A stretch of DNA of 64,000 nt from Bacteroidales bacterium (lineage in GTDB: Bacteria; Bacteroidota; Bacteroidia; Bacteroidales; UBA932), in the NCBI GenBank assembly GCA_015060335.1, contig SUYR01000004.1:60191-124190 (forward strand), written 5' to 3'. The notes below the pieces were generated by a model. It made no database searches, was not told the origin of the DNA, and worked only from the letters and a program-made list of their open reading frames with translations. Shown in pieces: positions 1-30,793 of the stretch (position 1 is the stretch's first letter; each line of letters opens with the position of its first letter). A program made the translations under genes and the position numbers.

Positions 1-978
1 ATATGTATATTCTGTTGCAGGTGTCAGACCTTTGACATCTGCCATCCATGTACCTTCCGAGTCATTCACACCGTCAGCATACTTCCAGTCCGATCCGTTT
101 GAAGAATATCCGAATCTGACTGTTGCTCCCGCATTTGATGAAGGGTCAACATCTGCATGGAGGGTTGCCTTGGTTGCCCATATTTCATAAACCGATGACG
201 GTGCCAGACCTGTTGATACCGGCTCGAATACAATTGTATTATCTACGATATCCGTAGTATAATCCACCATCAGAGTAAAGTCAATATCGCCATCCTTGAT
301 GGTATATCTGAGATTCATCCTATAGAGTTTCCCCGGAAGCACGTCGGCTATTGTACCTGTCTTGACAAAGGATGATCCGTCCTTGAGCAAGGTACCTTCA
401 AATGTCCAGGTAAACGAAGGCTCATCAAGTCCCGCTACGATGAAATATCCTTCCGCACCGGACTTCGAGGCATCATATACCAGCTGAGCTGATTCATCAA
501 GACCGATTGTAAATGAATATCCATCGGCAAAGTTTTCCACTACAGTCTGGTCGAAAGTTATGGCTGTCACAGCATTGTTAATACCAGCTTCGACTTCAAC
601 ATTTGTCACCTGACCTGCTACGATTGTAAACTCTTTTGAACCCTTGTAGCTTTTCTGTTCCCATGAAGCAGCTGCGGGATTCTCCTTTACAGACTCTCCC
701 GCTTCGACATCCACTCTGTATGTATCTGCAGCCAGATAGAAAGGAGACGGCATCTGATCAAATGTATAGGAACGTACCAGTCCCGAAAAATCTGCCTTGT
801 AGATCTTTACGGTTGCCGTATTCTTCAGCTGATCGGCATCGAGAGCAGCCTTTGTGAGTGATGAGATATTCATATCCACCTTAAGGACGCCCTCTCCCCC
901 ATTATTTTCGTTCATTCCGGCCTTGGAGCAGGACAGTATGGCAACGGCCACACATAATAAAGACAATATCTTTTTCAT
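1..978 (-). CDS. DUF4493-like lipoprotein, partial (runs off left edge)
   Basis: Reverse-strand reading from ATG at 978: MKKILSLLCVAVAILSCSKAG... lipobox, then LTKA motif and a beta-sandwich like the neighbours; open to position 1. Confidence 0.8.
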   Translation of the reverse strand, partial: MKKILSLLCVAVAILSCSKAGMNENNGGEGVLKVDMNISSLTKAALDADQLKNTATVKIYKADFSGLVRSYTFDQMPSPFYLAADTYRVDVEAGESVKENPAAASWEQKSYKGSKEFTIVAGQVTNVEVEAGINNAVTAITFDQTVVENFADGYSFTIGLDESAQLVYDASKSGAEGYFIVAGLDEPSFTWTFEGTLLKDGSSFVKTGTIADVLPGKLYRMNLRYTIKDGDIDFTLMVDYTTDIVDNTIVFEPVSTGLAPSSVYEIWATKATLHADVDPSSNAGATVRFGYSSNGSDWKYADGVNDSEGTWMADVKGLTPATEYTY

Positions 979-991
979 ATCTTCATCCTCC

Positions 992-2233
992 TTACTCTAC
1001 TACCATAGTTACAGGAATGACATTCTTGCAACCCTGAAGATCGACTACTGTCATCATGAACTTATGTGTACCCTTATGGCTGATGATCTCATCCTGAGCA
1101 TTACTGAGATCGAACTCCACCTCTGTCTGGCCAACGAGCTCAGGTCCGTGAGGGAACGGAACCACCTTGAAAATGATATCGTGTGCAGCTGCTGGATTGA
1201 TAAGGTCGATATGGAATGCGTCAACGGCTGCAAGTGCATTGTTGAATGTTGTACCGTCTGACTCTATATCCACTGTAAACTTCCTGATTCCTCCTGGAAT
1301 TGTTGCTTTCAGCTTGATTGACATATCCCTTTCTGAAACAGGCACAATCTTGATGTTCTGGAGATCTGTAAGCTCCGCATCACAACCGTTCTCATAATCA
1401 AATGCTATGGCAATTCCACCGTCGCCCTTAGGCGCCTCCGGATCCTCACCGATGATTTCCTCTTCTACATCGACTCCATTATTGAGAATCGCATCGGAAA
1501 TAAGGTCATTGATCTCAACGTCGAAAGTAGCATTTCCCTGCTCGTTCTTCTTAGGAACGAATCTTATCTGTCGCCACTGCTTTGGCTCGATACCGGCAAA
1601 TGTCTTGTTCATTGTCATGTTCTTGCCATCAATACTTCCCTTGAAGCTTACAGTCATGGTATTGCCATTGACAGCAAAATATCCTGCACTCTGATCGTAG
1701 GTACCATCTGCATCAAGTGCAAACTCAAGTGGATGGCCAGCCGTAAGCTCGACTTTTGTTGACCCTGGTCCTGTAACTGAAGCAAGGAATTCATCGCTGT
1801 ATGACACTGTCACCTTGCACTGGAGAAGGGTACATGTCAGTTCTCCGATTGATGTGGTCATACCTGCTACAATAGAGAACGACTTCGAGACCCCGTATAC
1901 AGGCTGTTCAAATGCAGCGATCTGCACCTCATCCTCCACTGAACGGGCAACAAGAGTATAGTCTCCTGCAGGAATTGACAGTTTGTTGCCATTATTCTTG
2001 ACCTCCGAATAAGACTTCTGCATGATGACATCCCCATCGATATTCTTGATGAATATAGTATAATTGCCACTTGCTGGCGAAGCCTTGGTTATCAGTTCCT
2101 CATCCAGGCCGAGAGTGAACTCGCCGAATGAAAGATAACCGTTCCCCTTCTGCTGATTTACAGGAGTTTTCTGGCATGAAGCCACGAGCATCAGTGCTGC
2201 TGAAATTGCTGTAAGTATAATATTTCTTTTCAT
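992..2233 (-). CDS. DUF4493-like domain lipoprotein
   Basis: 413 aa ORF, lipobox LMLVASC, ITKA motif, pattern matches the paralogs in the cluster. Confidence 0.85.
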   Translation of the reverse strand: MKRNIILTAISAALMLVASCQKTPVNQQKGNGYLSFGEFTLGLDEELITKASPASGNYTIFIKNIDGDVIMQKSYSEVKNNGNKLSIPAGDYTLVARSVEDEVQIAAFEQPVYGVSKSFSIVAGMTTSIGELTCTLLQCKVTVSYSDEFLASVTGPGSTKVELTAGHPLEFALDADGTYDQSAGYFAVNGNTMTVSFKGSIDGKNMTMNKTFAGIEPKQWRQIRFVPKKNEQGNATFDVEINDLISDAILNNGVDVEEEIIGEDPEAPKGDGGIAIAFDYENGCDAELTDLQNIKIVPVSERDMSIKLKATIPGGIRKFTVDIESDGTTFNNALAAVDAFHIDLINPAAAHDIIFKVVPFPHGPELVGQTEVEFDLSNAQDEIISHKGTHKFMMTVVDLQGCKNVIPVTMVVE

Positions 2234-2245
2234 ATGGTATCCTCC

Positions 2246-2971
2246 TTAATCGTTGAGTTCAAAATCGCCGAGGTCAATCGTCTCGACATTATCGTTGAAT
2301 TTGATTGTAATAGATGAGCCGCCCACATTGCTGACATCAAAGTGGAAAGTATATGCAGTAGCTTCATCGAGGTTTGTATATTCCTTCTGGAATGAATATG
2401 TCTTGGATTCTCCTGTAAGTGTGCCTTCGACAGAAATCTTATATCCATCCACGAATGCGGCTCTTGATTCATCCTTGACGAATTCTACAATCGCAGTTCC
2501 GTCTCGTGTCACCTTGAATGTGTAGTCTTTATAGTATCTTTTGAAATCATCAGAGCAGCTGACCTTAACTATGGTATTACCCAACGAAACCGGAATCGAG
2601 ACAGAAGATGCCTCGCCACCAGTTATGATAAAGTCCTCTGTACCCGTAAAATAAGGAGCATCAAATCCTTCGGTGTCAATAGATCCGCAAGAAGCCGTTA
2701 CTGTATATTCACCGGCAAGAAGGACCGTAGTCTCATCCCAATCTGAAATCTTGCCAGACCACTGATATCCTGAGCCAGAAACTGAGATTGAGAAATCCTC
2801 TGTTGAAGGCAGGGTCGTATATTCTGAAACCTTGCTTTTTGTCATATCCGCAACAATTTCGTTGCTGGACACTGTAAAGCATACCTGTCCGCCACCTTCA
2901 GTCTGATTCTTCTGGCAGGATATCACCGCAAGAAGAACCAGCACGCTAATGATTGTTTTCAAGTAATTCAT
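2246..2971 (-). CDS. DUF4493-like domain lipoprotein
   Basis: 241 aa ORF, lipobox LAVISC, MTKS motif, LAGEYTVTASCG...FDAPYFTG pattern. Confidence 0.85.
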   Translation of the reverse strand: MNYLKTIISVLVLLAVISCQKNQTEGGGQVCFTVSSNEIVADMTKSKVSEYTTLPSTEDFSISVSGSGYQWSGKISDWDETTVLLAGEYTVTASCGSIDTEGFDAPYFTGTEDFIITGGEASSVSIPVSLGNTIVKVSCSDDFKRYYKDYTFKVTRDGTAIVEFVKDESRAAFVDGYKISVEGTLTGESKTYSFQKEYTNLDEATAYTFHFDVSNVGGSSITIKFNDNVETIDLGDFELND

Positions 2972-2992
2972 TGTTAAATGGTTTGAATCTTA

Positions 2993-4879
2993 TTATTGTA
3001 CAATTTTCACTTTTATATCGTCGAGATAAAGCCAGAAATTGGCATTGCTGTTACCTTTGTTCTCATTGGTACTTACAATCCATGCGAGTCTCATGCTGTT
3101 ATCCAGGCCATTGACTGTAACTGTCTTGGTACCCTCAAAAGAAGTATATGATCCTCCGGAAGTAGAAAGCTGTTCTCCATTGATTATCATAGGCGACAAT
3201 GATGTAGGAGCCGAGCTGGCAAAGCCGGAGCCTCCTATCAGGCCTGCTGCACTGTCAATTATACTGTCTCCCTCAAGTACATCCGGATTAGTGACGACAT
3301 CCTGATAATTGACACCGAAATACAAGGTTGCCTTCTTTCCGCTGCCGGCATTCTTCTGGGCGCTGCCATATCTGAAAGACACAGAAACGTTTACATCCTT
3401 TCCGTCCTTTATATTCGACAGGAATGGCGTGTATAGACGTCCCTTATAGAAGGCACCTATCCATAAGACGTTTTCATATCTGCAGCACAGACGCACAGAA
3501 GTGCCCGCCTGAGCCCCTATTCTGGTAGCATACCAGCCTGAAAGGACTGAAGTCTTTGAAGACAGTTCGATGATGTCCTTATATGTGTCTGAGTTGATAC
3601 CTGTCGAAGGATTGTCATGTCCGTCACTGAATCCAGGTATTGCGCTGAAATCTTCATAGAAGAGGTAAGGAACAGAAAGATCCACGATGGTATTGTCAAT
3701 TGCAGAAAGATCTGAGATGCGGACAGTCTGATATGTGAGAGTGTTGTCACTATCATATGTGACAGATATGTCCTTGCTGCTGAATGCCCTATACTGAGTT
3801 TCATCTTCAAAACGCAATGAGAATGTCTCTCCTGCTGTAATCTTATGACCAGGAGTGTATCTGAACACATTAGAGCCACTGTTATCCCACCTACATCCCT
3901 GAGGAGCCGTAAGAACGATTGTATTCACTCCCTCACCAAGATTATTTGCTGTAACCTTGAACGTAATCTTATATGGATACTCCACCAATTCCCTTACGTT
4001 CAGTTTGACCGGTGTGGAATGCCCTGCCTCAAAAGTCCTACCGCAAAGGTCTATAGGATCGAAATATACAATTCTGTCACTTGTATAAGCCTTTACCTGC
4101 AACGACTCTCCTTGTGCAAACTTAGACGGGAGAAATGCAAGGCAGGCATACTGTATATCACTGTCTGAAATGCCCAGCGGGGTAGAAAGTTTAAGTTCGA
4201 CAGACGCATTCGAAGCAGAGAGATCTGCCGGAGCATCCGGATTTTCCAGATCGAAGGTGACATTTCCGGTCACACCAGAAGGAAAAGTAAGAAGAATCCT
4301 CTCCAGCTTTTCATTACCGATTACAGTATTGTCTCCAGGGATGAAGAACCTGAACTGATGCATCATACGGTTCATATTCATTTTCATCGGAGATTGTTCT
4401 TCAGGATCGGACACAGGTTTCAACGCTCCATGTTCCACAGGATCGGCAATCATGATATCTGCCCCCTGAGAGACTTTTCCGTCCTGTACCGAAGGCACAT
4501 TGAAAGACACCTTGCTGCCGCTCACAGAAATTGGAGCGGGATAGCAGCAATAATAAGTATAAGATGCCTCAGGCATTGCTGATGAAAGAACAGATGTAAA
4601 GAATCCATCCTTTCCGTCAATTCCGTATGTATAGAATTTCTGATTTGACAAGACATATGATCCGGACTGGTCCTTTGCCCAAAGAGCAAGTTCATCCCCC
4701 TCCGACCACGAGGCAGACAAGCCGTCTTGTCCGATGACTGTGCGGGTAAGTGCATTTCCTGCATACAGACCGACTTCGACGTTCTCGGGAGATCGAGTAC
4801 CTATATCATCAATACACCCGATAACGAGCCCGAGAGTTGCCAACACAAGGCTCAGTTTTAATTGCAAGTTACTAGTCAT
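2993..4879 (-). CDS. Fimbrillin (Mfa-like) family lipoprotein with extra C-terminal beta-sandwich region
   Basis: ORF 2993..4903; start placed at MTSNLQLK (4879) because a TATTTTTG promoter-like box overlaps the longer start. ALTRTVIGQDGLSASWSEGDELALW...MNRMMHQFRF is typical of Mfa-like fimbrillins. Confidence 0.75.
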   Translation of the reverse strand: MTSNLQLKLSLVLATLGLVIGCIDDIGTRSPENVEVGLYAGNALTRTVIGQDGLSASWSEGDELALWAKDQSGSYVLSNQKFYTYGIDGKDGFFTSVLSSAMPEASYTYYCCYPAPISVSGSKVSFNVPSVQDGKVSQGADIMIADPVEHGALKPVSDPEEQSPMKMNMNRMMHQFRFFIPGDNTVIGNEKLERILLTFPSGVTGNVTFDLENPDAPADLSASNASVELKLSTPLGISDSDIQYACLAFLPSKFAQGESLQVKAYTSDRIVYFDPIDLCGRTFEAGHSTPVKLNVRELVEYPYKITFKVTANNLGEGVNTIVLTAPQGCRWDNSGSNVFRYTPGHKITAGETFSLRFEDETQYRAFSSKDISVTYDSDNTLTYQTVRISDLSAIDNTIVDLSVPYLFYEDFSAIPGFSDGHDNPSTGINSDTYKDIIELSSKTSVLSGWYATRIGAQAGTSVRLCCRYENVLWIGAFYKGRLYTPFLSNIKDGKDVNVSVSFRYGSAQKNAGSGKKATLYFGVNYQDVVTNPDVLEGDSIIDSAAGLIGGSGFASSAPTSLSPMIINGEQLSTSGGSYTSFEGTKTVTVNGLDNSMRLAWIVSTNENKGNSNANFWLYLDDIKVKIVQ

Positions 4880-4900
4880 TTCGTTAAGAATCTTGAAACG

Positions 4901-4908
4901 CAAAAATA
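4901..4908 (-). promoter_or_regulatory. Bacteroidetes -7 box TATTTTTG upstream of the 2993..4879 gene
   Basis: Reverse complement of caaaaata, matches TAnnTTTG, about 22 nt from ATG at 4879. Confidence 0.45.
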
Positions 4909-5015
4909 TAAAAATTTATATAGCATTCAAAATTCGCGACGAAGATAGATAAAAAGGCGTCTAAACAGTCTCGGATTACTGTCATTTCAAGCAACCAACG
5001 GGAGTCGAAATTCTT

Positions 5016-5125
5016 GTCTGGCACTCAAAGTATTGACACACACCAATTTACAGAAAATCGATTCCCCTGCGGCGGGGAATCGATTATTCATAAAGCGTTC
5101 AGGGTCACGCGGTTAGGTGCCAGAG
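5016..5125. repeat. 110-bp palindromic element, copy A1
   Basis: CTGGCAC...CGATTCCCC-loop-GGGGAATCG...GTGCCAG; imperfect terminal inverted repeats and strong central hairpin. Confidence 0.85.
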
Positions 5126-5267
5126 AATTATGTCAAGAGGGTGCTTTCGAGATATAAGATATGCATTTCTTCGGAGGCTTACTTCGTGGCGAGGATGGAT
5201 AAAAAGGGCGACTAAACAGTCTCGGATTACTGTCATTTCAAGCAACCAACGGGAGACGCCACATCTT

Positions 5268-5377
5268 GTCTGGCACTCAAAGCATTGACACACACCAATT
5301 TACAGAAAATCGATTCCCCTGCAGCGGGGAATCGATTATTCATAAAGCATTCAGGATCACGCGGTTAAGTGCCAGAG
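5268..5377. repeat. 110-bp palindromic element, copy A2
   Basis: Same architecture and length as A1. Confidence 0.85.
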
Positions 5378-5519
5378 AATTATGTCAAGAGGGTGCTTTC
5401 GAGATATAAGATATGCATTTCTTCGGAGGCTTACTTCGTGGCGAGGATGGATAAAAAAGGCGACTAAACAGTCTCGGATTACTGTCATTTCAAGCAACCA
5501 ACGGGAGACGCCACATCTT

Positions 5520-5629
5520 GTCTGGCACTCAAAACATTGACACACACCAATTTACAGAAAATCGATTCCCCTGCAGCGGGGAATCGATTATTCATAAAGC
5601 GTTCAGGATCACGCGGTTAGGTGCCAGAG
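5520..5629. repeat. 110-bp palindromic element, copy A3
   Basis: Same architecture and length as A1. Confidence 0.85.
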
Positions 5630-5770
5630 AATTATGTCAAGAGGGTGCTTTCGAGATATAAGATATGCATTTCTTCGGAGGCTTACCTTCGTGGCGAGGA
5701 TAGATAAAAAAGGCGACTAAACAGTCTCGGATTATTGTCATTTCAAGCAACCAACGGGAGTCGAAATCTT

Positions 5771-5877
5771 GTCTGGCACTCAAAGCATTGACACACACCA
5801 ACTTACAGAAAATCGATTCCCCTGCGGCGGGGAATCGATTATTCATAAAGCGTTCAGGATCAGGCGGTTAGGCGCCT
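5771..5877. repeat. 110-bp palindromic element, copy A4 (right terminus incomplete: ggcgcc then unrelated sequence)
   Basis: Same left terminus and central hairpin; right end stops at ggttaggcgcc. Confidence 0.8.
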
Positions 5878-5897
5878 TCAATTTACTCTAAAATAAA

Positions 5898-7937
5898 TTA
5901 TTCGGAGTATAATATTTTTAATGTTTTAATCCATACATCACCCTCTCGTCCCGCAAAATATGTTCTTGTAAACTTAACAGTAGAGTTAGATGTTAACAAA
6001 CTACCCGAATATGCCTCAGTAAAATCAACTGTAATAGCAGTTCCGGATTGTCCTTCTTTTGAGCCTATATCTGTACCACCAGCACTTACTGTCAATTTTG
6101 GTTTGCCAAATCTTGATGGAGTATATATACTAAATGAGGTACTAATATTAATTTTAATTGCTGAAGGCACACTCAAATTTAGAGTAGCTGAGTTACTTGT
6201 TGAATGATTTAGGTGTATCGTTGTACCTTGCCATTCCGCAGTACCACCACTTAAAGACCATTTATCTGTATGTGGGCTATTCACCAAATCGTACGGCAGA
6301 CCTGTGATGTGGTGAGTCTGGGACTTTTCAACGGTCTTGTTATCAAATGTCAGAGATACTGACAGCTGATGAGATTCCCATGAGCATTCTGTAATGTTTT
6401 CGTAAAACTCGTTTGCTGCGAAAGAGTTTACTGAATACGTACGCGACTTGTCGCCATCATAATCAATGACCAGTTTCTTAGAGTAATTCTCGTTAGCCAT
6501 TATATTCTGAGAGAGTGTCCATCTTCCTCCAGCATTGTAGATAGTTTCAGGAGCGCAATTATTTGCTCCCGCATCACCATTAATATCTTTTGTAATGTTG
6601 TTGGTACCTGCATATTTATCATATGAAGTATATGAACTCAGTATCAAATCAAAAGATGGTGTAGCTGGCACGTCAAGAGCGATATCCTCAAAAGTGTGTG
6701 TCTTTCCGTCAATCGTTGCTGAAGCTTTGACGATATATTCCTCATCATTACCCACAGGCAGATAAGGCCAACCTTTTTTTGTGTCAGTGATTGAGGAGCC
6801 GTCGGAGTTGCCGAGCGACAGACCTTCACGGAGAGGTGTGCCGTCAGCTTTGCAGACGTTGATATTCCAGCTTTCTATGGCATTTCTGACCGCAGCAGAC
6901 TTGTTGAAAGATGAGGTGACATCAGTTCCATCCAACTCTCCGGATGTAGTGGTATGGCTTGCTGATGCAGACAGACCGTCAACTTCCGGAGTGATCTTCA
7001 CCAGATTGCTTACAAGAGCACCGACACGTGCACGTACCTGATACTCAGTACCTTCAGAGAGTCCTTTGAATACAAGGACATTATTCTCTGTAACAGCTGT
7101 CGCAGCATTCGTCCAGTCTGAGGAAGCAGAAGGAATCGCCTCATACACTACTGCCTCCTGATTCTTCTCCGAAATTTTTCCGCTGAAAGATGCCGGAGTA
7201 GTGACAAAGATACGAGAAGCCCATGCATCTTCCTTCTTGAGTGTCAGGGAGATTGAAGGCCAGTCATTATCAGTCTGACCGCAAGTGACATTATATGCAA
7301 CTTTTGCAGACGGAGCAGCAAGCTTATGTGTCAATTCAACTTTCTCACCTGCAGAGTTCTTTCCTGACATCAAGAGAGTCAGATCTGCCCTAGAGGGAAC
7401 AAATACCCATTCTCCATATCCTGCAGTATATGCACCCTGATTGAATGACACGGTTTCACCCGGCGTGAAATGCGTCGTGAATGATTCTTCAACATTCACT
7501 TTGACAAGAGCATTCGCAAGCGCAAGAGTCAATGCCGGAACTTCCTGATCAAGAGGACTGATCGAGCCTGAAGCCGAACCGGTAAAATACGGCACGCCAA
7601 AAGTATTGGTACCCGCAGAAGCTTCAACGGTATAATTTCCCACAGGAAGCACCAACGGTTCTGACCACAAGCCTTTGCGGTTATATATTTCATTTCCGTT
7701 CTTGTCCTTGACGACAAATGTTATGTCTGTCACAGCTGGCTCAGCAATATCAATGTCCAATGACTTGGTCGGTGTCAGGTCATCAACCGTGACATCAACG
7801 TCAAGCATCGGAGCAGAGAGATAACCCACCTCTCCTTCCTGCTGTATCTGCTCACCTATACAAGATGAGAACGCAAAGGCAGAAAGTGTCAGAATCGCCG
7901 CTGTTGTTATTTTATTTATATATGACATGTTTTTCAA
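5898..7937 (-). CDS. DUF4493-like lipoprotein with fn3-like and C-terminal beta-rich regions
   Basis: 679 aa ORF; lipobox AFAFSSC, PTKS motif, YEAIPSASSDW...LSEGTEYQVRARV fn3-like segment; TTG start in track, ATG at 7928 also possible. Confidence 0.8.
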   Translation of the reverse strand: MKNMSYINKITTAAILTLSAFAFSSCIGEQIQQEGEVGYLSAPMLDVDVTVDDLTPTKSLDIDIAEPAVTDITFVVKDKNGNEIYNRKGLWSEPLVLPVGNYTVEASAGTNTFGVPYFTGSASGSISPLDQEVPALTLALANALVKVNVEESFTTHFTPGETVSFNQGAYTAGYGEWVFVPSRADLTLLMSGKNSAGEKVELTHKLAAPSAKVAYNVTCGQTDNDWPSISLTLKKEDAWASRIFVTTPASFSGKISEKNQEAVVYEAIPSASSDWTNAATAVTENNVLVFKGLSEGTEYQVRARVGALVSNLVKITPEVDGLSASASHTTTSGELDGTDVTSSFNKSAAVRNAIESWNINVCKADGTPLREGLSLGNSDGSSITDTKKGWPYLPVGNDEEYIVKASATIDGKTHTFEDIALDVPATPSFDLILSSYTSYDKYAGTNNITKDINGDAGANNCAPETIYNAGGRWTLSQNIMANENYSKKLVIDYDGDKSRTYSVNSFAANEFYENITECSWESHQLSVSLTFDNKTVEKSQTHHITGLPYDLVNSPHTDKWSLSGGTAEWQGTTIHLNHSTSNSATLNLSVPSAIKINISTSFSIYTPSRFGKPKLTVSAGGTDIGSKEGQSGTAITVDFTEAYSGSLLTSNSTVKFTRTYFAGREGDVWIKTLKILYSE

Positions 7938-8732
7938 TTATTCTGTTATGAAAGAACCTCCTTGAGAAGGGTCCACTGTAATGGTCTCATAGAGATCCTC
8001 GCATGCAGTATCCACGATAATCTCAGGTTTGCCGACTGTTCCGTTCTGCTCGCTCATCCTGAATGTCAGGTGGAGGTGTGTTGCAGGCTGAAGAGTCTTG
8101 GATCCTGTGATAGTCATCGGTTCATTATCAATGATATAAGTACCGGAGAACACATAGTTGAGTGCTATGCCGCTGTTGAAATATCCCACAGCGGGAGTCT
8201 CTCCTACAGTATTCTCTGGCGTATATTCAAGCTTACGGGTATCCACCGTATAGGCTGTGATCTTGTAATCGGTGAAATGCTTGTCGATATTCTCTCCGAA
8301 TATTACTGACACAGCAGTATTGACCATCTTGCAAGTCACGCTATACACAGTAGGATTGAGTCCCGCAACAACCTCTTTGGCTTCAGAAGTACCGGCATAT
8401 CTTACCTGCCCCCATTTGTCCGGAGCAGTCAGAGACTCCACTTCTGTAACATTATCAGCGGATACGGTATAAAGGCCAACAGGCACGGTAATCACAGAAG
8501 GCATATCCTTATAGAGATATGTGAATGTCGCATCTTCAGAACTTACATATACATTGAAGTCATCAACGCTTACGTCTTCTCCACCAGCCCTTGTCAGGAC
8601 TTCCACAACAGGAGAATTCTCAAGGGAGAGGCTCAGACGACCTTCCACCTCTCTCTGGATAAGACTCTTCTGACAAGACAGAGCCATTGACGAGATCAAA
8701 ACTATAAATAAAAATTTCTTCATATCGATCAA
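7938..8732 (-). CDS. DUF4493-like domain lipoprotein
   Basis: 264 aa ORF, lipobox MALSC, LTRA motif. Confidence 0.85.
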   Translation of the reverse strand: MIDMKKFLFIVLISSMALSCQKSLIQREVEGRLSLSLENSPVVEVLTRAGGEDVSVDDFNVYVSSEDATFTYLYKDMPSVITVPVGLYTVSADNVTEVESLTAPDKWGQVRYAGTSEAKEVVAGLNPTVYSVTCKMVNTAVSVIFGENIDKHFTDYKITAYTVDTRKLEYTPENTVGETPAVGYFNSGIALNYVFSGTYIIDNEPMTITGSKTLQPATHLHLTFRMSEQNGTVGKPEIIVDTACEDLYETITVDPSQGGSFITE

Positions 8733-9604
8733 TATATATCTATTACGCAGTCAATTACTGTGGCATCTTCCACCTGTGTATCAACCAGTATAGAAGGGAG
8801 TTGTACAGTACCGTCAACGATAGTGTCGCCATCCTCCGGATTGATTACCTCTGTGAAAGAATCTTTTCCCATTTCACCGTCAACGGTTATTCCGGGACCT
8901 ATGACTCCGTTATGATTACTCTTAATTGTGATTTTTGCCCATTTTGCAGGAGAAAGAGTCATCGGAGAAGCTGAATTCGTATATGTCAGCTTCCTTTCCG
9001 ACTCTGTACCCTTGGCCACTGTACCATATATGGTATAGACAAGCTGAGAGCCTGACTCCGGCACATTGAAATATACTTCAGTCGGAGCATTTGCCTGAGC
9101 GCTGGTCAGAGTAACCTTTCTGGTAGCTGTAATGTCAACTGTGACATCGCTGAAATCCTCAAGGAAACTCTCGTCGAAAGTCATGGTAACCTTACCATTG
9201 ACCATCTTACAGGTAACCGTCACATTGGCAGGAGTCTGTGAAAGCACATCCACCTGATCTGACACACCCTGATATCTGACACAGCCATAGCCGTTCTCAG
9301 CAGTCGTTTCAAGACAGCTCTGGGCTTCTACCTGGTAGTATCCATATGGAATCTCCACTTCATCAGGCATCTGTGAGTACACATACTGCTCTGAAGCATA
9401 GGCCTGTCCGAGAAAAGTCTCGCCATAGATATCTACCAGAAAGCCGCTGCAGTCCACCGGATCCGCCTTAGTGCTCACAACAACCTCCCTGTCAGATGAC
9501 AACGAAAGCGAGATGGCTCCCATACGCTGAGGGCTCACCATTGCCTTGTTGCATGCTGAGGCAAGAAGTATTGCTGCGGATATGTATAAGGCTGATTTAC
9601 GCAT
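8729..9604 (-). CDS. DUF4493-like domain lipoprotein
   Basis: 291 aa ORF, lipobox LLASAC, STKA motif; 4-bp overlap with next gene. Confidence 0.85.
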   Translation of the reverse strand: MRKSALYISAAILLASACNKAMVSPQRMGAISLSLSSDREVVVSTKADPVDCSGFLVDIYGETFLGQAYASEQYVYSQMPDEVEIPYGYYQVEAQSCLETTAENGYGCVRYQGVSDQVDVLSQTPANVTVTCKMVNGKVTMTFDESFLEDFSDVTVDITATRKVTLTSAQANAPTEVYFNVPESGSQLVYTIYGTVAKGTESERKLTYTNSASPMTLSPAKWAKITIKSNHNGVIGPGITVDGEMGKDSFTEVINPEDGDTIVDGTVQLPSILVDTQVEDATVIDCVIDIY

Positions 9605-9616
9605 TGGAAAAAGAAA

Positions 9617-10405: not shown

Positions 10406-10432
10406 AATGGTTATAAATCTTATTTGTTTATG

Positions 10433-11200: not shown

Positions 11201-11201
11201 G

Positions 11202-12836: not shown

Positions 12837-13657
12837 TTATTCTTCATTCTTGCCTTCCTGCTGTGAGGACCTGTATAGAAATAAAAACTTGTACCGATCT
12901 CGATTGCAAGAGGATTGATGCGGAAGTTTGCGCCACTGGTCTGCATCATACTGTGTTCCACCTGATTACGGGTCTGTTCAACTCTGGTCAGATTGATTCC
13001 GAGAATTCCCACAGCCACTTCTACTGCGACGTTGTCCTGCGCAAAGACACAGATACCTGGAACAAAGTTTATCGATCCGCTTACAGTGGTCTGATATGTT
13101 CCGAACTTATCCTCGCCATCGACTTTCCATGTCTTGGACTCACCGTAACCACCCGTAGCTCTGACTTCGGCAAAGATTGCAAAACGCTTGCTGTTGGCAA
13201 TGGACATGTAGTATCTCATCGTCAAGGAACCGCTGAATGTATGCTTGAGCATGTTGTAATCGGAGATTCCGAAACTCATGTCATCGCCCAACGAAAGAGC
13301 AGCATTACCGAGTCCAAGAGAAGATCTGTCATAATCGAAACGCGCACCGACACTCAGATTGTTGGCTACAAAATATGACACATGCGGTGCCAGACCGAAT
13401 GTGTACATACTGCCTTCAAGACCGTTGATGAGGTCGAAGAGCAATGAGTAGCCGTTGTCATCCGCAGCCCTTCCGAGATCGATTGTATTATAGGAGAAAT
13501 TGACTCCCGCATTAACCGTACCCTTAGGGACAAAGACCGAATTAGACATGCCGATACCTCTGTCGAACGGCTCGACAGGCTCCGTATTCTTACGGGAGCC
13601 TGCCCAGCTGCTCGCAGCTATGCATATCATTATCGATATTGAAAAAATTCTCTTCAT
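12833..13657 (-). CDS. Outer-membrane beta-barrel protein
   Basis: 274 aa, signal peptide, alternating hydrophobic strands (MRYYMSIANSKRFAIFAEVRATGGYG...), C-terminal aromatic strand. Confidence 0.75.
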   Translation of the reverse strand: MKRIFSISIMICIAASSWAGSRKNTEPVEPFDRGIGMSNSVFVPKGTVNAGVNFSYNTIDLGRAADDNGYSLLFDLINGLEGSMYTFGLAPHVSYFVANNLSVGARFDYDRSSLGLGNAALSLGDDMSFGISDYNMLKHTFSGSLTMRYYMSIANSKRFAIFAEVRATGGYGESKTWKVDGEDKFGTYQTTVSGSINFVPGICVFAQDNVAVEVAVGILGINLTRVEQTRNQVEHSMMQTSGANFRINPLAIEIGTSFYFYTGPHSRKARMKNK

Positions 13658-13666
13658 GTCTGAGGT

Positions 13667-15868
13667 TTAGAAAGGACTTACCTTGCTGAATACCTGCTGA
13701 TATTCTGCATCTGTAAGTTCTGCCGGATCGTAAACAAGATTGAATTCATCAACTCTGAGTACCGAACCTACACCACCTGTAAAATAGTCTCCGTAACGGC
13801 TGGCTGCTGCCACAATGACTATATATTTAGGCGTCCTGTTGTTTCTGTACACAAGAGGCAATGTGAATTTCACATATCCGTTGTCATTGTTACCTGAGGT
13901 CAATGAGCCATGTGCGATTATATGCTCGTCATTCTCAAAATCTACAAACTGTTTCTTTGAAGTATTGATACGGAACATTCCATCCCAGTCTGTCAGCAGA
14001 ATCTGGATCTGACACTGGTCTGACTGTCCTGCAAGTCCCTTATAAGGATCCTTGGTCATATCAATGGTCTTAGGAGTGTATTTGTAGTATCCTGTAAGCG
14101 CTATCGGACGAGATGAGAATGAATATCCCCAATCAAGCTCTGCACCGAGGCCGGCTACCTTTGCAAACTTACCGATATAGATATTACCTGCAGCAAGCAT
14201 ACCCATAGCCTTCGATGTCTGAAGTTTGGCTGCCTTGCCCTTCACTACATCAGACTCTTCTGGAGTCGTCGGAACAACACCCAGACCGGCAGTTCCCGGA
14301 TTCGCAGAGTCCCATACATAGGTGCTTGAGCTTGCATTAGGCATCCATGCATCACCATCCTTATACCAGTTGTCAAAGCTGAGGTTAGGAACCATCTGAG
14401 CTGCTGCTGTAGAGAATGTCATCTCCTTGGTCTCCTTGTCTTCTGCAGAAACTGCACGGAATACGTACTCTGTAGAAGGAGCCAGACTGTAAACGACAGT
14501 TGTATATCTGAGTGTTGCAGTATTTACTTCCATCTTTGAAGGATCGATCTCAGTCCACTCGGACTCTGATGCCTTTCTATACTGGAATGTAATGCCTTCC
14601 GGCACCTCCGGTGTAAAGAAACGTCCTTCGAGTTTAGCGAAACATGCCCAACCTGCTGTTGCAGATACAGCTTCTGCGTCAACATCGGAAATCACTTCAA
14701 GAATCAGTTCAAATACATCATAGTGTCCCTTTGCATCAATGACAGTAAACGTCATTTCATATGCTCCGACAGGAAGTCTGGAAATAAAAGATGTTATATC
14801 GACAGCCACTTCTGTCGAGCCCAGAGCCACAGCCTTGGTAATTGCCTGAGATACAACGATACCGGCATTAGTCAGATCGGTTGCAGATGTACCTATAAGT
14901 TCTGCTGACTTAGGAAGTCCAGACTGTTCAAGTACCTCATTGTCATGAGTTATACGCAGACTGCTTACTCCGACAGGTGTACTGAAGTTGAGAACTTTGC
15001 TGATGCTGTTTCCTACAGGTGTAGTCACAGGAACTCCTGACTCTACAGCGAACTCATCATTTGATGACACTTCAGGGAGAGAGCTGTTGTCAAAATCAAG
15101 GATAAGCTTATGCTCAGACTCATCCATAGAGTTGTCAAGAGTGACCTTGATGATGAACGCTCCGTCAGCCGTCTGATCCTCTCCGAGTTCGAAGGTAAGA
15201 TGATAATGCTGCTTAGCCTTCACATCCTCATAAGTCGCTGTATATCTGTACTCTCCTCCTTCTGAATTCTTCAGATAAAGATTCCATGTCAATGTACCTG
15301 TCACAGCAAAATATGCCTCTGCATCCAGTCCTGCCTCGAGTGAGTTTCCGGCCTGTGGTGCATTGCTGAGAACAAGTGCCGAGCCTGTACCGTTTGTTAC
15401 AGACACTTCGTACACATCAAAGTTATCTGAAAAATCCTCAGGAAATTCTACAGAGAATATTGTATTAGCCAAAGAACATGTAAGATCGACGGTATTGATT
15501 CTGTCCGGATAGATCTTCACATCCTTGCTTCCCTCATAATAAGGGTTGTTGAATGCTGCATTAAGGTCTTCGCCATTACTTGCAGTCACAGTATATGTTC
15601 CGATCTGAAGTTTGATCGGATTCTCAGTCGTCACTGTACGGTGGTCTTCTTCAGTTGCCACGGTCTGTCCTGACTGGTTGCTCACATTTACTGCAAACAC
15701 CAGTTCGTCAGCCGCATCAGCCTTGACAATGATATCCTCCGAGAGGTCACTGTCCATCCTGATGCCGAGATATCCGTAGCTGTTATCCTGGATCACTTCC
15801 TGATTACATGATGCCAGAACACCTGCAGAAAGGACGACTGTCATTATATATGAAAGTCTTCTTTTCAT
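13667..15868 (-). CDS. DUF4493-like N-terminus plus PCMD C-terminal module, lipoprotein
   Basis: 733 aa; lipobox VLASC; IVKADAADELVF; C-terminal NLSFDNWYKDGDAWMPNASSSTYVWDSANPG. Confidence 0.82.
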   Translation of the reverse strand: MKRRLSYIMTVVLSAGVLASCNQEVIQDNSYGYLGIRMDSDLSEDIIVKADAADELVFAVNVSNQSGQTVATEEDHRTVTTENPIKLQIGTYTVTASNGEDLNAAFNNPYYEGSKDVKIYPDRINTVDLTCSLANTIFSVEFPEDFSDNFDVYEVSVTNGTGSALVLSNAPQAGNSLEAGLDAEAYFAVTGTLTWNLYLKNSEGGEYRYTATYEDVKAKQHYHLTFELGEDQTADGAFIIKVTLDNSMDESEHKLILDFDNSSLPEVSSNDEFAVESGVPVTTPVGNSISKVLNFSTPVGVSSLRITHDNEVLEQSGLPKSAELIGTSATDLTNAGIVVSQAITKAVALGSTEVAVDITSFISRLPVGAYEMTFTVIDAKGHYDVFELILEVISDVDAEAVSATAGWACFAKLEGRFFTPEVPEGITFQYRKASESEWTEIDPSKMEVNTATLRYTTVVYSLAPSTEYVFRAVSAEDKETKEMTFSTAAAQMVPNLSFDNWYKDGDAWMPNASSSTYVWDSANPGTAGLGVVPTTPEESDVVKGKAAKLQTSKAMGMLAAGNIYIGKFAKVAGLGAELDWGYSFSSRPIALTGYYKYTPKTIDMTKDPYKGLAGQSDQCQIQILLTDWDGMFRINTSKKQFVDFENDEHIIAHGSLTSGNNDNGYVKFTLPLVYRNNRTPKYIVIVAAASRYGDYFTGGVGSVLRVDEFNLVYDPAELTDAEYQQVFSKVSPF

Positions 15869-15894
15869 TTTTTAATAGCTTAGGATAGCAGTGA

Positions 15895-17250
15895 TTAGAT
15901 AGATACGAAAACAACAAGCTGCTCAAGGATTCCGCCTTCCTCATCAGTTACCTTAAGAGTAAACTTATGCTGAGCACCTGGCTCTGGTCCATATATATTG
16001 ATCAGACCTATAAGACTGGTAAGATAGAACGGAACTGTTTCCTTGCCGAGAATCTCATCGCCGAGCGGGAGTCCGAGACCCATACCCGCAAGATTCTCAA
16101 GAAGAGTTGCATCTCCTATCATATCCATAACTGCAGGACCGCTTTCATATGAATCCGCGTATGAGCAAAGAGCTGCGACAGTAGGGCTAAGTGCCTCAGA
16201 ATCGACGATCACCTCAAATGTCTTTACCTTCTTAGGAGCATTGACAACAAGGTCTGCATTGAGATCGTCATCAATATTCATCGGAGCAAACGAAGGATTG
16301 GCTTCCCACACAAGATATGGAGCTGTTGAAGGAGTAGGATCTACAGGCTCGTTTCCTGTGTTGTCGTCATTTCCACCTTCTTCACCTGTATCGTCTCCGC
16401 TGCCGTCTGAAGGCTCGTCACCAGGTACATACTCCTCATCAAAGCCAGGAATCACGATATTCTGGTCAATCTCATTCACATCATGATTGATAGTGATGTT
16501 GATGCCACCGAGTGTACCGGTAACCTTTGCGTCGATATTGAGGACATGGTGGTCAGCCGCCTTTACATCTTCAATGATCATAGTAGCAGAAGCGGATGTA
16601 TTGTCGATCGCTCTATGTCCGTCGATTGTGATGGAAAGAGGAGCAGCAGTAAACCATCCTGCCTCGTTTCCGGTGTAATATGTCTGTCCCTCGATTGCTA
16701 CTGGCTTGAAGTCATCTTCACCTGCATTCTTGTTCCATGAAAGGTTGCCCTTTCCGTTGCTTACGGTTACTGTATAACCTGAAAGCTCCTGAACGAAATT
16801 GTCAGAAAGATTGACTGTGACCTTTACATTTGTTATTGCACAGATCACATCTACTGTTGTCACCTGACCTGTAAGGATCTTGAAGTCCTTTGAGCCTGAA
16901 TAAATAGGCTGGTCGAATGCAGCATGCTCCTTGGAAGCTGAAGATGCTGTGAGAATATAGTCGCCTGAGCCGAGCTCCACGACCTTTCCTCTGATCGAGC
17001 TGAACGGATCATAGGTCTTTGTCCAGTTGTCATATGGACGCTGTATATCGATTACAAGGTCATTTATGATCTCGTCATCTGTAGCTCTTGTCACCACTTC
17101 GTGGAGATTTGACTTGCAGGTAAGGTCAACTGCAAGCGATCCGGTGCCAGTCTGCTCGATGACCTCTCTGTTGCAGCCTGTGAATATTGCTGCTGCAGCT
17201 ATAATAGGGAAAAATATCTTTTTCATTTCAATTTTGATTTTTCTATTCAT
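15895..17250 (-). CDS. DUF4493-like lipoprotein with acidic/Gly-rich linker
   Basis: 451 aa; lipobox AIFTGC; VTRA motif; linker GDEPSDGSGDDTGEEGGNDDNTGNEP. Confidence 0.82.
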   Translation of the reverse strand: MNRKIKIEMKKIFFPIIAAAAIFTGCNREVIEQTGTGSLAVDLTCKSNLHEVVTRATDDEIINDLVIDIQRPYDNWTKTYDPFSSIRGKVVELGSGDYILTASSASKEHAAFDQPIYSGSKDFKILTGQVTTVDVICAITNVKVTVNLSDNFVQELSGYTVTVSNGKGNLSWNKNAGEDDFKPVAIEGQTYYTGNEAGWFTAAPLSITIDGHRAIDNTSASATMIIEDVKAADHHVLNIDAKVTGTLGGINITINHDVNEIDQNIVIPGFDEEYVPGDEPSDGSGDDTGEEGGNDDNTGNEPVDPTPSTAPYLVWEANPSFAPMNIDDDLNADLVVNAPKKVKTFEVIVDSEALSPTVAALCSYADSYESGPAVMDMIGDATLLENLAGMGLGLPLGDEILGKETVPFYLTSLIGLINIYGPEPGAQHKFTLKVTDEEGGILEQLVVFVSI

Positions 17251-19447
17251 AAATAAGTTCTATGTCATCAAGCTTTAAGAATGAGCCTGCATGTGCTTTA
17301 ACGGTCTCTTCTCCGAGTCTGAACTTCGAATCTGTATCGACATGACCGTCACCATAGCATGAGCTGAAGCGCACGTAAATGCTTGCGGCCTTCTTGTCAA
17401 ATACTTTATATGTAAAAGGAAGTGAATATAAAGTCCATGTATCTGCTGCCGGGCCGGCTGTCTCCTGTGCTGTAGCCAGGACTGTACCGTCAGCCGCCTT
17501 CACCCAGGCATCGACAAAGAACTTGTCTCCGTCTGTCGGAGCATATTTATAATAGAATGTGAGTCTCGAAGGACGGCTTGCAAATGCATGTCCTTCAGTA
17601 GCATGATTTCCGTCACTGTCAGATGTTCCAATCCAGATTTCACCCTCATATGTAGTTCCGCTGGCAACACCGATAGTATTGTTGTTGTAACCAGTGTTTG
17701 AGCTTCCTACATTTACAGTGAAAAGCATTGCAGCCTTGTTGCCGCTGTGACGGTCGTCAACATATCCGGATGAAGGGAAGTTCTTACACCATGTCGCAGT
17801 AAGCAGTGTATGTCCGTCAGGCATTGACTGAAGGCTGTTACATGCCCACCATGGGTCAGCCTCTCCTGAAGCATATGGCAGATACCAGTTTCTGTCATAG
17901 GCAGATCCAAGCGGTGAAACTCTCTTAGTCACAAGCTGGTAGCCCTCGAATCCGCTGTTGCCGAGCTGCAGAGCATCCTCTGTGGTAATCGTAACCACCG
18001 GACTCTTACAGTTCTCATTCTTGTTGTATATAGCCCTGACCTGATATGTTGTCGAAGGTGCTGTAGGGATAGTACCGTAATTGAGTGTATAGCCGCTTGT
18101 AGAAGGAGTGACTTCAATATCTGACCAGCTCACGCCGTCTGATGTAACCTGGAAATCCACAAGAGCAGGAACACCTTTGCTGATTGTGACTACAGGATCC
18201 ACGACCTTGGCTGCCCAGACATTGTAATCCTTGATATCAAGGCTTACCTTAACGCCTCCGGAAACTATGCTGAACTGCTCTGTAATCTCTTTTCCAACAG
18301 CATCCACTACCTTGAGTGAGAAATCAGCCATTGTCACATCATCGGCCTCTGCCTTCACAGACGAAAGCATATTTGCGATCACGTCCGAGAAGTCGATGAA
18401 TGAGAATGTTCTTGATGTAGCCATTCCTTCGTCCCAAGAGAAACCTGCAGACTTGAGAAGAGCCTTGGTATTTGAATCCAGATTTGCAAAATCAACTTCT
18501 GCAGGAACACCCTTTGCCGCGAGCCATTCTGAATCCGTTGTCAGATAGCAATGTGACAAAGAGCCTCTTGCAATGAAGCTTGCCATTCCGCTGTGACCGG
18601 CAGCAGTCTGTCCCTCGATGATTTCGTGAGTATTGTCTGCTCCATCAAAGCCTGCGAGCGTGATTGTAGGAGCCGCCTGCGGAACTGTAGTTGCTGGAAT
18701 CTCGATTGTCTCGTTCTTGTCTTCTGTAGCAGTATCAACAGTAATGTTTATGACAAGACTGCCTTCGCGGTTGTCTGTCGTAATTGTGAAGGTAACGAAA
18801 TCATTAGGAGAATAGGTCATAGGCTCTGTCTTGAAATACTTTACAGTACCTGCTTCATCAACTACTGCATAGACTTCGAGAACAACCTCACCACCAGGCA
18901 TATAGCCGCATCTTGTCTCATTCTTTGAGAACTTGATCTGCTTGCCCTCATGGTCATTATGTCTGACAATTGTGTAATAGTCAGAGTAATTCTCCTTGAT
19001 GGTCTCATGGTAGTTAACCGCCATCTTGACATTGGCAAGCTTTGCCTCAGCAGAAACGGTATTACTACCTTTCTTCACCTCAAACTCTTTTTCAGCAAGG
19101 TAATACGCCTTGTTGAATCCGCAGCCGAGTGTATCACCATGGTGTGCAACAAGGCGGTACATCGCTGCATTGAGCTTAATTTCCTGTCCCACTGTGTTGG
19201 CGTATGAGTCATTGTAAAGACGGATCATCTTGTCATCCTGAAGTTTGTAGATGGCAACTCTGAAATCGTCCAATACAGGCTCATCCGCGTCTGCCCTTGT
19301 ACCGATTATCTCATTCCGCATATCCGTTGAAAGAGCAATAGAGACCGTACCGACCTCTTCTGAGGGCAGCGGTCTCTGTTCTATCAACTGTTCAGAACAT
19401 GCAGACAAGATTACCAGCAGGGCTGGAATGAATCTTAAACGTCTCAT
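17243..19447 (-). CDS. DUF4493-like N-terminus plus PCMD-like C-terminal module, lipoprotein
   Basis: 734 aa; lipobox LVILSAC; GTRA motif; C-terminal LGNSGFEGYQ...LDDIELIYE. Confidence 0.8.
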   Translation of the reverse strand: MRRLRFIPALLVILSACSEQLIEQRPLPSEEVGTVSIALSTDMRNEIIGTRADADEPVLDDFRVAIYKLQDDKMIRLYNDSYANTVGQEIKLNAAMYRLVAHHGDTLGCGFNKAYYLAEKEFEVKKGSNTVSAEAKLANVKMAVNYHETIKENYSDYYTIVRHNDHEGKQIKFSKNETRCGYMPGGEVVLEVYAVVDEAGTVKYFKTEPMTYSPNDFVTFTITTDNREGSLVINITVDTATEDKNETIEIPATTVPQAAPTITLAGFDGADNTHEIIEGQTAAGHSGMASFIARGSLSHCYLTTDSEWLAAKGVPAEVDFANLDSNTKALLKSAGFSWDEGMATSRTFSFIDFSDVIANMLSSVKAEADDVTMADFSLKVVDAVGKEITEQFSIVSGGVKVSLDIKDYNVWAAKVVDPVVTISKGVPALVDFQVTSDGVSWSDIEVTPSTSGYTLNYGTIPTAPSTTYQVRAIYNKNENCKSPVVTITTEDALQLGNSGFEGYQLVTKRVSPLGSAYDRNWYLPYASGEADPWWACNSLQSMPDGHTLLTATWCKNFPSSGYVDDRHSGNKAAMLFTVNVGSSNTGYNNNTIGVASGTTYEGEIWIGTSDSDGNHATEGHAFASRPSRLTFYYKYAPTDGDKFFVDAWVKAADGTVLATAQETAGPAADTWTLYSLPFTYKVFDKKAASIYVRFSSCYGDGHVDTDSKFRLGEETVKAHAGSFLKLDDIELIYE

Positions 19448-19465
19448 GATTTTATTGGTTAAATA

Positions 19466-20968
19466 TTAATTGTTTTCATAGAATTCCGGTTTTACCCTAC
19501 GAAGGGAAAAACGGTACGTGAGATTTATACCTGCACGTGTAATTCCGAAATGATGTTTATCCTGATGTTCGACAAACTCCCACATTGTTCCGTTATATGC
19601 AGCGGTATTGTGAGCATAGTGAGCATATCCGACTCCCAGGAGGAACTCGATTCCCCAATTTGCCTTATGACCAAGTCCGAGCGAATAACCATATGTAAAG
19701 CCGGCGCTCCATGCAGGATTTGAGTTGCCTGCATCATGGAAATTACCTTCCCAGACATCCTTAGGACCGTTCTGATATAGAAGCCCGTCAGTCCATTGCA
19801 TTGTGTACCAGCCTAATCTGGCATGCACTCCGACAAAACTGCCCTTGCGCATTGTATTGCCCTTTATCCACCAGCGGAGCTCCGGTGTCAGACCATAGAA
19901 ATTGGTATTTGTGTCTTCCTTGCAGAAGATATTTGTATGAGTGAGCCAACCCTCGATATCAAGCGAAACACTCTTGCCGATCTGGAATTCTACTCCTACC
20001 ATAGGCACAGCCAGAGCGTCTGCTATGAGATTGGTCTTCAAGCCCATCATCCACGGGGTATCCCAATATTTCTTCGGTCTTTCATAAGCAGCTCTATACT
20101 GCTCGTATGCCTGATCAAGCATAGTTGCAGTCACCGGGTTCTGGACCGGAGTCTGCACCTGTGTCTGTACTTCAACAGGCTGAGCAACAGGAGCGTCCAC
20201 ATATACAGTATCTTTCACGACTACTACCGGAGCAGGCTGTCTTACAACAAACACCGTATCTCTCACATAAACCGTATCCTTGGCTGTTTCAACAACGGTT
20301 TCCTTCATGACCGGTTCCTCAACCGGAGCCGTAAGATAAGGTTTTGTAGGATCCCATTTGCAATAGATGGCAAATCTGACACATCTGAGTTTTGGGAAAA
20401 AGTCCTTCTGAAGAGTCTTCCACACCTTTCCACCATCAAGTTTCTGAAGCGCAGTCTTTCTTTCTCCCCACTTCTTTGTCCTTATAATATATAGTATCTC
20501 AGCCTTATATGGCAGATCAGAGGCTGCCACCAGTTCTGCAAGACGGTCCCAGTCCTCATTAAGGCTTTCCTTGTGTATCTTGTATTCCGGTATTCCTGTA
20601 ATCTCCGTCAGATATTCTGCTGCGGCATCGGTTCTTGCCTGACTGAGCGTAACATTCTCTCCCCAAAGTCCGTCAGGACAAGTACTGCCACAGATCCATA
20701 CCTGCAACAACTCCTTGGACGGGTCCTGAAGGACCTGACTCAATTCGTAAACGGCCGCATTGAATTTAGGATAATTGACCAGACGAGCTACACCACGAGG
20801 TAGCATGATTGATGTCAGAACGCTGTCTGCATAAAGAGTCTTTGTACCGATATCTTCCAGTTTGATATAACGTATATAGGACTGCGAATTCGCAATCTGA
20901 CCGGACAAAAGGCAGAACATGACTGCCAGAAGGGCAAATTTACCCCTGAAACAACTCATATTATTCAT
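19466..20968 (-). CDS. DUF3575-like / OmpA-like envelope protein
   Basis: 500 aa; signal peptide; OmpA-like QARTDAAAEYLTEITGIPEYKI; DTVYV-rich linker; C-terminal MMGLKTNLIADALAVPMVGVEFQIGKSVSLDIEG typical of DUF3575. Confidence 0.75.
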   Translation of the reverse strand: MNNMSCFRGKFALLAVMFCLLSGQIANSQSYIRYIKLEDIGTKTLYADSVLTSIMLPRGVARLVNYPKFNAAVYELSQVLQDPSKELLQVWICGSTCPDGLWGENVTLSQARTDAAAEYLTEITGIPEYKIHKESLNEDWDRLAELVAASDLPYKAEILYIIRTKKWGERKTALQKLDGGKVWKTLQKDFFPKLRCVRFAIYCKWDPTKPYLTAPVEEPVMKETVVETAKDTVYVRDTVFVVRQPAPVVVVKDTVYVDAPVAQPVEVQTQVQTPVQNPVTATMLDQAYEQYRAAYERPKKYWDTPWMMGLKTNLIADALAVPMVGVEFQIGKSVSLDIEGWLTHTNIFCKEDTNTNFYGLTPELRWWIKGNTMRKGSFVGVHARLGWYTMQWTDGLLYQNGPKDVWEGNFHDAGNSNPAWSAGFTYGYSLGLGHKANWGIEFLLGVGYAHYAHNTAAYNGTMWEFVEHQDKHHFGITRAGINLTYRFSLRRVKPEFYENN

Positions 20969-30447: not shown

Positions 30448-30610
30448 AAACCTGTTTAAGGTACTATTCCTAAACCTTGAGGCGGTCATGACGTAAGTCT
30501 GGCCGCTTCTTCTATTATTGTCAGTCCGTACTGACTATTTGTCATATTATACGGATTGGAATGGAGTTTGGTCTGTCACACATTGGAGAAGACATGGACT
30601 GTCATCCCGA

Positions 30611-30793
30611 CAGTTTGTTCAATGTCAGCACGACAATATGTTTAACGTCATCCCTGACAATATGTTTAACGTCAGAACGACAATATGTTTAACGTCAGAA
30701 CGACAATATGTTTAACGTCAGAACGACAATATGTTTAACGTCAGAACGACAATATGTTTAACGTCAGCACGACAATATGTTTAACGTCATCCC
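30611..30793. repeat. 23-bp tandem repeat (caatatgtttaacgtcagaacga), ~8 units
   Basis: caatatgttta recurs at 30634, 30658, 30681, 30704, 30727, 30750 and 30773, plus a degenerate unit at 30611. Confidence 0.93.

Follow-up and report, generated by a model that had tools for sequence, protein, structure and literature searches.

The first part of the 64,000-nucleotide window analysed here (contig 46, bases 60191-124190, in a Bacteroidales genome of 2.46 Mb in 54 contigs) is occupied by a run of minus-strand genes that forms two tandem operons. Both combine lipoproteins carrying a DUF4493 domain with small β-barrels and a PCMD lipoprotein. Judged from sequence, this DUF4493/barrel/PCMD operon is conserved, common to many gut Bacteroidales and previously undescribed. 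On balance, each operon probably specifies a pilus or adhesin that is a variant of the type V (FimA/Mfa) kind known from Bacteroidales, for which we infer cleavage, strand exchange, a filament, an anchor role and a ligand. Close named relatives of the bacterium are 'Candidatus Cryptobacteroides', besides Bacteroidales metagenome-assembled genomes (MAGs) from bird and herbivore guts.

Counting three genes past the window start, the run comprises 18 genes. Eleven DUF4493 proteins and one Mfa_like_1 protein make up twelve proteins with a fimbrillin-type domain; the remainder are two PCMD-only lipoproteins, three small barrels and one DUF3575/OmpA protein. PCMD is also found at the C-terminal end of three DUF4493 proteins (g02, g04 and g15). 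Between neighbours, distances are -29 to +27 nt in the g01-g11 part and -4 to +21 nt in the g12-g18 part. Because g11 and g12 are separated by 994 nt, the run consists of two operons and not of one array. Operon I (g01-g11) spans 5898-20968, and operon II (g12-g18) extends from 4879 to approx. 4.1 kb beyond the window start, where two barrels and a PCMD lipoprotein are followed by an ABC-F gene on the opposite strand. The original prediction, made from the letters of the window, had described a single array of ~21 kb at 1-20968, which thus has to be divided and continued by three genes past position 1. Its co-directional minus-strand gene order and the overlaps at 8729/8732, 12833/12836 and 17243/17250 were all confirmed.

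Gene classes are abbreviated as follows: P, DUF3575; A, DUF4493 with a weak PCMD; B, DUF4493 with a conserved C-terminal domain; C, DUF4493-PCMD fusion; D, barrel; E, PCMD lipoprotein; M, Mfa-like fimbrillin; s, stand-alone DUF4493. Operon I contains:

g01 (P), 19466..20968, minus strand: OmpA-like and DUF3575 outer-membrane protein, optional head gene (PF12099 89 bits; PF00691 25.5 bits, sub-cut-off)
g02 (A), 17243..19447, minus strand: DUF4493 lipoprotein with weak PCMD, lipobox and TRA site (PF14900 114 bits; PF13201 38 bits)
g03 (B), 15895..17250, minus strand: core gene; lipoprotein with DUF4493 and conserved C-terminal domain, Cys26 and Arg55 (PF14900 134 bits; AlphaFold2 mean predicted local distance difference test score, pLDDT, 83.8; Foldseek matches to fimbrillin adhesins)
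g04 (C), 13667..15868, minus strand: core gene; DUF4493-FN3-PCMD fusion lipoprotein (PF14900 145 bits; PF13201 150 bits)
g05 (D), 12833..13657, minus strand: core gene; small outer-membrane β-barrel with 10 predicted strands (AlphaFold2 pLDDT 74.5; OmpA/OmpW-like by Foldseek)
g06 (E), 11202..12836, minus strand: core gene; PCMD lipoprotein with neither DUF4493 nor T(K/R)A, candidate anchor (PF13201 146 bits; relatives 4jrl and 3hbz)
g07, 10433..11230, minus strand: stand-alone DUF4493 lipoprotein (PF14900 73.9 bits)
g08, 9617..10405, minus strand: stand-alone DUF4493 lipoprotein (PF14900 94 bits)
g09, 8729..9604, minus strand: stand-alone DUF4493 lipoprotein (PF14900 119 bits)
g10, 7938..8732, minus strand: stand-alone DUF4493 lipoprotein (PF14900 112 bits)
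g11, 5898..7937, minus strand: DUF4493 with a C-terminal part of ~440 amino acids lacking an assigned domain; final gene of operon I (PF14900 51 bits)

Operon II contains:

g12 (M), 2993..4879, minus strand: Mfa-like fimbrillin, head of operon II (PF13149 Mfa_like_1 32.7 bits, cut-off 27)
g13, 2246..2971, minus strand: stand-alone DUF4493 lipoprotein (PF14900 113 bits)
g14 (B), 992..2233, minus strand: DUF4493 lipoprotein, counterpart of g03 (PF14900 108 bits)
g15 (C), 1..978, minus strand, cut by the window edge (complete at L009:15325-17169): DUF4493-FN3-PCMD protein
Two barrels outside the window, L009:14581-15318 and L009:13793-14584
PCMD lipoprotein outside the window, L009:12115-13791

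PF14900 (DUF4493) matched 11 genes inside or cut by the window with 51-145 bits (gathering cut-off 27 bits), and PF13201 (PCMD) matched g02, g04 and g06 in the window scan. The earlier assignments of DUF4493, PCMD, Mfa-like and DUF3575 domains are all backed by Pfam scores well over the gathering cut-offs. Likewise, the claim of a lipobox plus DUF4493 in at least 11 genes agrees with the PF14900 count and with the lipobox present in every one of the genome's 12 DUF4493 proteins. For the first gene, called DUF3575/OmpA-like, the DUF3575 part held and the OmpA part fell just short of its cut-off (25.5 vs 27.2 bits).

Comparison of loci fetched from other genomes (L numbers) revealed a general order: [DUF3575], [DUF4493(-PCMD) or Mfa], DUF4493, DUF4493-PCMD, small outer-membrane barrel(s), PCMD lipoprotein and [0-6 extra DUF4493]. 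Within the genus, where DUF4493 is present in 57 of 61 genomes, two recurrent orders were seen, [P] A B C D E (type I) and M s B C D D E (type II); operon II and its relatives start with the Mfa-like fimbrillin gene. The window genome reads PABCDEsssss followed by MsBCDDE, and both types together were seen in no other of the 61 surveyed genomes (the automated order scoring counts A as C, so that operon I reads PCBCDEsssss). Among the fetched loci, 86 distinct C-D(1-2)-E runs were counted, 82 of them with B immediately upstream; two barrels occurred in 19, extra DUF4493 genes after E in 22 and P in 11. DUF3575 is therefore optional and no core component. The complete arrangement PABCDEsssss was also found in L046, L047 and L072 with the g07-g11 order kept. 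Instead of one system with many alternative subunits, as had been proposed, the comparison shows two distinct operons, each of its own conserved type, and g07-g11 form an ordered, conserved set. These five might be further subunits, and g11, with its large C-terminal part, is a weak candidate for a tip protein. In an order-wide sample, DUF4493 was present in 31 of 247 genomes, and approx. 14 of 20 loci drawn from these, belonging to many families, displayed the full B-C-D-E order. The core also occurs in Prevotellaceae MAGs and in the type strains Rikenella microfusus DSM 15922 (L096) and Millionella massiliensis Marseille-P3215 (L094), both of which carry sBCDE operons.

The assignment to type V pili is based on a predicted fold and a putative processing site. 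By sequence, the DUF4493 profile had no significant relatives in the PDB. An AlphaFold2 model of g03, calculated with 46 orthologues, showed an all-β domain pair with a pLDDT of ~95 over DUF4493. The top 20 PDB matches of this model in Foldseek were Bacteroidales fimbrillin-superfamily proteins, except for the Gram-positive 6fwv. They included 5cag (E-value 5.7e-8), 3up6, 4qdg, 4gpv, 3pay and 4rdb (probability 1.00), the last of which is PG_0181, which corresponds to Mfa4 in P. gingivalis W83 (PMC4789730). DUF4493 proteins are accordingly predicted to have the two-domain fimbrillin fold. The original prediction had named structures unrelated to fimbrillin folds as grounds for giving it up; the model matches fimbrillin-superfamily crystal structures. 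Of the multi-subunit surface structure with a fimbrillin-like fold and possible glycan binding that it had suggested, the fold is thereby supported, and assembly and binding belong to the readings weighed below.

Type V fimbrillins are lipoproteins that are cut after an arginine or lysine in the β1-β2 loop, e.g. Mfa4 (Cys19/Arg53) and FimA (Cys19/Arg45), with 24-35 residues between Cys and R/K in known type V proteins (PMC4789730, Table 2). A lipobox was present in 357 of 378 DUF4493 proteins (12/12 in the window genome), and 293 of these 357 contained [TSV][KR][AS] at most 65 residues from the lipid Cys, compared with 77 expected from shuffled segments. The basic residue lies near Cys+29 (10-90% range ~+25 to +35). 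In g03, Arg55 corresponds to Cys26 + 29 and is located in a low-confidence loop (52-56) preceded by a strand at 36-45 and followed by one at 66-71. By class, the motif was found in 56 of 82 C proteins (7.5 expected) and 166 of 209 other DUF4493 proteins (17.6 expected), and in none of 72 E proteins (4.8 expected). Since the anchor of the Mfa1 fimbria, Mfa2, also lacks a processing site (PMC5789003), E is inferred to be the best anchor candidate.

All these results suggest the following mechanism. The DUF4493 proteins (A, B, C and the extra s), whose lipobox is evident, would be exported as outer-membrane lipoproteins and serve as fimbrillin-fold subunits. Position and conservation of T(K/R)A in the β1-β2 loop suggest that a trypsin-type surface protease cuts there. 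By type V precedent, the cut would remove the lipid-bearing strand β1, and the groove would then be filled by a strand of the neighbouring subunit. The uncut E together with barrel D may hold the base as membrane anchor or assembly platform, and the PCMD jelly-rolls on C, E and, in operon I, A may bind glycan or one another. C11 clostripain-family proteases (Arg/Lys-type) were present in 12 of 13 genus genomes, several of them incomplete, none linked to the operon; this family may provide the protease for T(K/R)A.

Several results weigh against a type V system. Whole-target TM-scores for g03 were only 0.33-0.44; the fold similarity is therefore carried by topology and the E-values of Foldseek, not by a tight superposition. 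Sequence homology between DUF4493 and fimbrillins is weak (PF08842 E=0.02, below cut-off), and hhalign comparison with Mfa2-type anchors, at 14-35% probability vs 0.2-1.3% for controls, is suggestive only. No DUF4493 protein reaches the cut-off of a Pfam fimbrillin family, g12 being the only match (PF13149), and no PF08842 match over cut-off, i.e. no Mfa2/FimB-type anchor gene, was found in the array. Furthermore, gingipain-family C25 proteases were found in 0 of 13 genus genomes, several of them incomplete, and the operons contain no obvious single shaft subunit. We speak of a variant and not of a plain member because the operons resemble type V pili in the features open to comparison but lack a Pfam fimbrillin match of the DUF4493 subunits and a Mfa2-type anchor in the cluster. 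Elsewhere in the window genome, canonical Mfa2-type anchor genes are located at C42:4534-5424 and C39:21644-22444, and the bacterium therefore probably has ordinary type V pili too.

The partners of the DUF4493 proteins are the barrel and PCMD. D proteins had no Pfam match over cut-off, and g05 no PDB sequence match over cut-off. In a phylum-wide barrel search, other barrel classes dominated and only weak matches were obtained outside the own genome. AlphaFold2 predicts a ten-stranded barrel for g05 with moderate confidence, and Foldseek places this model near barrels of the OmpA/OmpW class. PCMD belongs to the BT2081 family by sequence match; BT2081 combines an immunoglobulin-like domain with a jelly-roll whose pocket, deep and conserved, has been proposed as a carbohydrate-binding site (PMC2954218). 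Within the window genome, C and E share ~79% amino acid identity over their PCMD domains in operon I and ~64% in operon II, far above the rest of the genes, compared with ~37-40% (C-C) and ~45% (E-E) across the operons. In operon I, amino acid identity exceeds nucleotide identity (~73%), which fits old gene conversion within the operon followed by constraint. Across 54 non-redundant operons, within-operon C-E identity was higher than after permutation (group I, 51.2 vs 44.5%, 0/5000; group II, 4/5000; rest, 1/5000), with relatedness not fully controlled. A stricter rule, that the C and E PCMD are mutual closest relatives, was rejected, since C-E identity exceeded that to the best orthologue in just 2 of 90 pairs. 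Read most simply, these sequence comparisons mean that C and E have to recognise a common target, or that the two recognise one another.

The locus beside parE showed a corresponding variability. In Cryptobacteroides, the parE-acyltransferase-AMP-ligase block is directly adjoined by operons of type I (L022-L024, L054, L067 and L087) as well as type II (L032, L033 and L037), and the same parE-side position is used in another genus of the family (L131). Fourteen genus genomes without the full operon were examined at parE: 11 have no array gene there, L136 and L138 retain barrel(s) and a PCMD lipoprotein without DUF4493, and L147 carries a rearranged remnant. As two operon types, empty sites and remnants all lie beside parE, the comparison identifies the locus as a polymorphic slot. 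Type I operons away from parE also exist, e.g. L057 and L063. A bolder form of the type V proposal, which we regard as possible but doubtful, is a distinct type V-like pilus class. Its own outer-membrane barrel and the PCMD lipoprotein that stays uncleaved would be dedicated to anchoring or assembly. Matched PCMD domains of C and E, kept alike by gene conversion, would set ligand or docking specificity, and operon types would be exchanged at one slot.

The presence of PCMD in two or three subunits of each operon, the C/E likeness above expectation in group I, the survival of barrel and PCMD lipoprotein alone beside parE (L136, L138) and the lack of an obvious shaft gene would suit a non-polymeric surface lectin complex. 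Single lipoproteins or small heteromers would be clamped to the barrel and capture glycans via PCMD, and the R/K site would merely release or trim them. We consider this unlikely, since site position and the three-residue β1 pattern are those of polymerising fimbrillins and are present even in stand-alone DUF4493 proteins without a binding domain. An accessory polysaccharide utilisation locus (PUL), with PCMD in carbohydrate metabolism and the barrel as sugar porin, draws on the role proposed for PCMD/BT2081 and on paralogues residing in PULs (PMC2954218). It is very improbable, as no SusC, SusD, glycoside hydrolase or regulator family match was obtained among the scanned genes of both operons, and a barrel of 10 predicted strands (OmpA/OmpW class) is narrower than a SusC transporter. 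That many one-domain paralogues stand side by side could also reflect a redundant lipoprotein family grown by tandem duplication without joint function, an idea that hardly deserves credence and is largely contradicted by gene order and domain grammar kept over many families, paralogue identities of merely ~19-33% (sample of five), the g07-g11 order in L046, L047 and L072, and barrel and PCMD partners at fixed positions in 86 distinct runs.

Two further elements mark the boundary between the operons:

Operon boundary repeat, 4930..5880, no strand: 252-bp unit in 3.8 copies, each with a terminator-like palindrome AATCGATTCCCC..GGGGAATCGATT
Bacteroidota-type promoter-like site of operon II, 4880..4935, minus strand: TTG-N19-TATTTTTG directly before g12

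The g11/g12 gap contains four hairpins, each followed by T-rich sequence. The palindrome is dispersed over the genome (58 matches); the 252-bp repeat was therefore rejected as an element specific to the system, and AATCGATTCCCC..GGGGAATCGATT is possibly a REP-like (repetitive extragenic palindromic) element or a common terminator. Another repeat, a 23-bp unit (CGACAATATGTTTAACGTCAGAA) in 7.9 copies, lies at 30608-30789 of the window. The start originally called for g12, TTG 4903, is only 5 nt beyond the promoter -7 box, for which reason ATG 4879 is the probable start. Upstream of g01, a near match to the promoter motif, TTG-N19-TACCTTCG, was read by eye. A phase-variable promoter for operon I was not supported, the promoter region being without flanking inverted repeats, and sigma-70-type promoters showed no excess over shuffled sequence (37 vs 35.7). 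A solo DUF4493-DUF6359 lipoprotein, a type found once per genome across much of the genus, is encoded at L010:7740-9865 beside a P_gingi_FimA-family gene; as evidence this neighbourhood was given little weight, the FimA-like neighbour not being seen in the other genomes examined.

Among known systems, chaperone-usher pili differ in that an usher barrel and a PapD-like chaperone were not matched in the operon genes scanned, where the barrel has 10 predicted strands, and a PUL differs by its SusC/SusD pair, likewise not matched in the scanned genes of the two operons. With the BT2081/PCMD family (PF13201; PDB 3hbz, 4jrl and 4het) the operons share the C-terminal PCMD jelly-roll in g02, g04, g06, g15 and g18. 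Unlike the paralogues of PULs, PCMD is here part of a non-PUL operon and fused to or partnered with predicted fimbrillin-fold subunits. DUF4493, for which the literature searched holds no functional proposal, and PCMD, whose label 'putative carbohydrate metabolism' dates from 2010, both gain a testable role, and the operon is present in cultured type strains. Bacteroides Mfa_like_1/DUF3575 fimbrial loci (e.g. BT4227-BT4236, PMC10434189) have counterparts in g12 (Mfa_like_1) and g01 (DUF3575/OmpA-like), which here are optional heads of a core consisting of DUF4493, barrel and PCMD. From the type V pili of P. gingivalis (FimA, Mfa1), the operons are set apart by DUF4493 as a separate sequence family, the dedicated small outer-membrane barrel(s), PCMD fused to subunits, the missing Mfa2/FimB gene and the C25 gingipains not found in 13 genus genomes. 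Common to both are lipoprotein precursors, the predicted two-domain β-sandwich fimbrillin fold, an R/K site in the β1-β2 loop 24-35 residues past the lipid Cys, several unlike subunits per operon and one uncleaved lipoprotein, here the candidate anchor. No helper proteins have been identified for P. gingivalis fimbriae (PMC5789003), and should the barrel turn out to be the anchor or an assembly factor, it would be a type of component so far missing from the type V pilus field.

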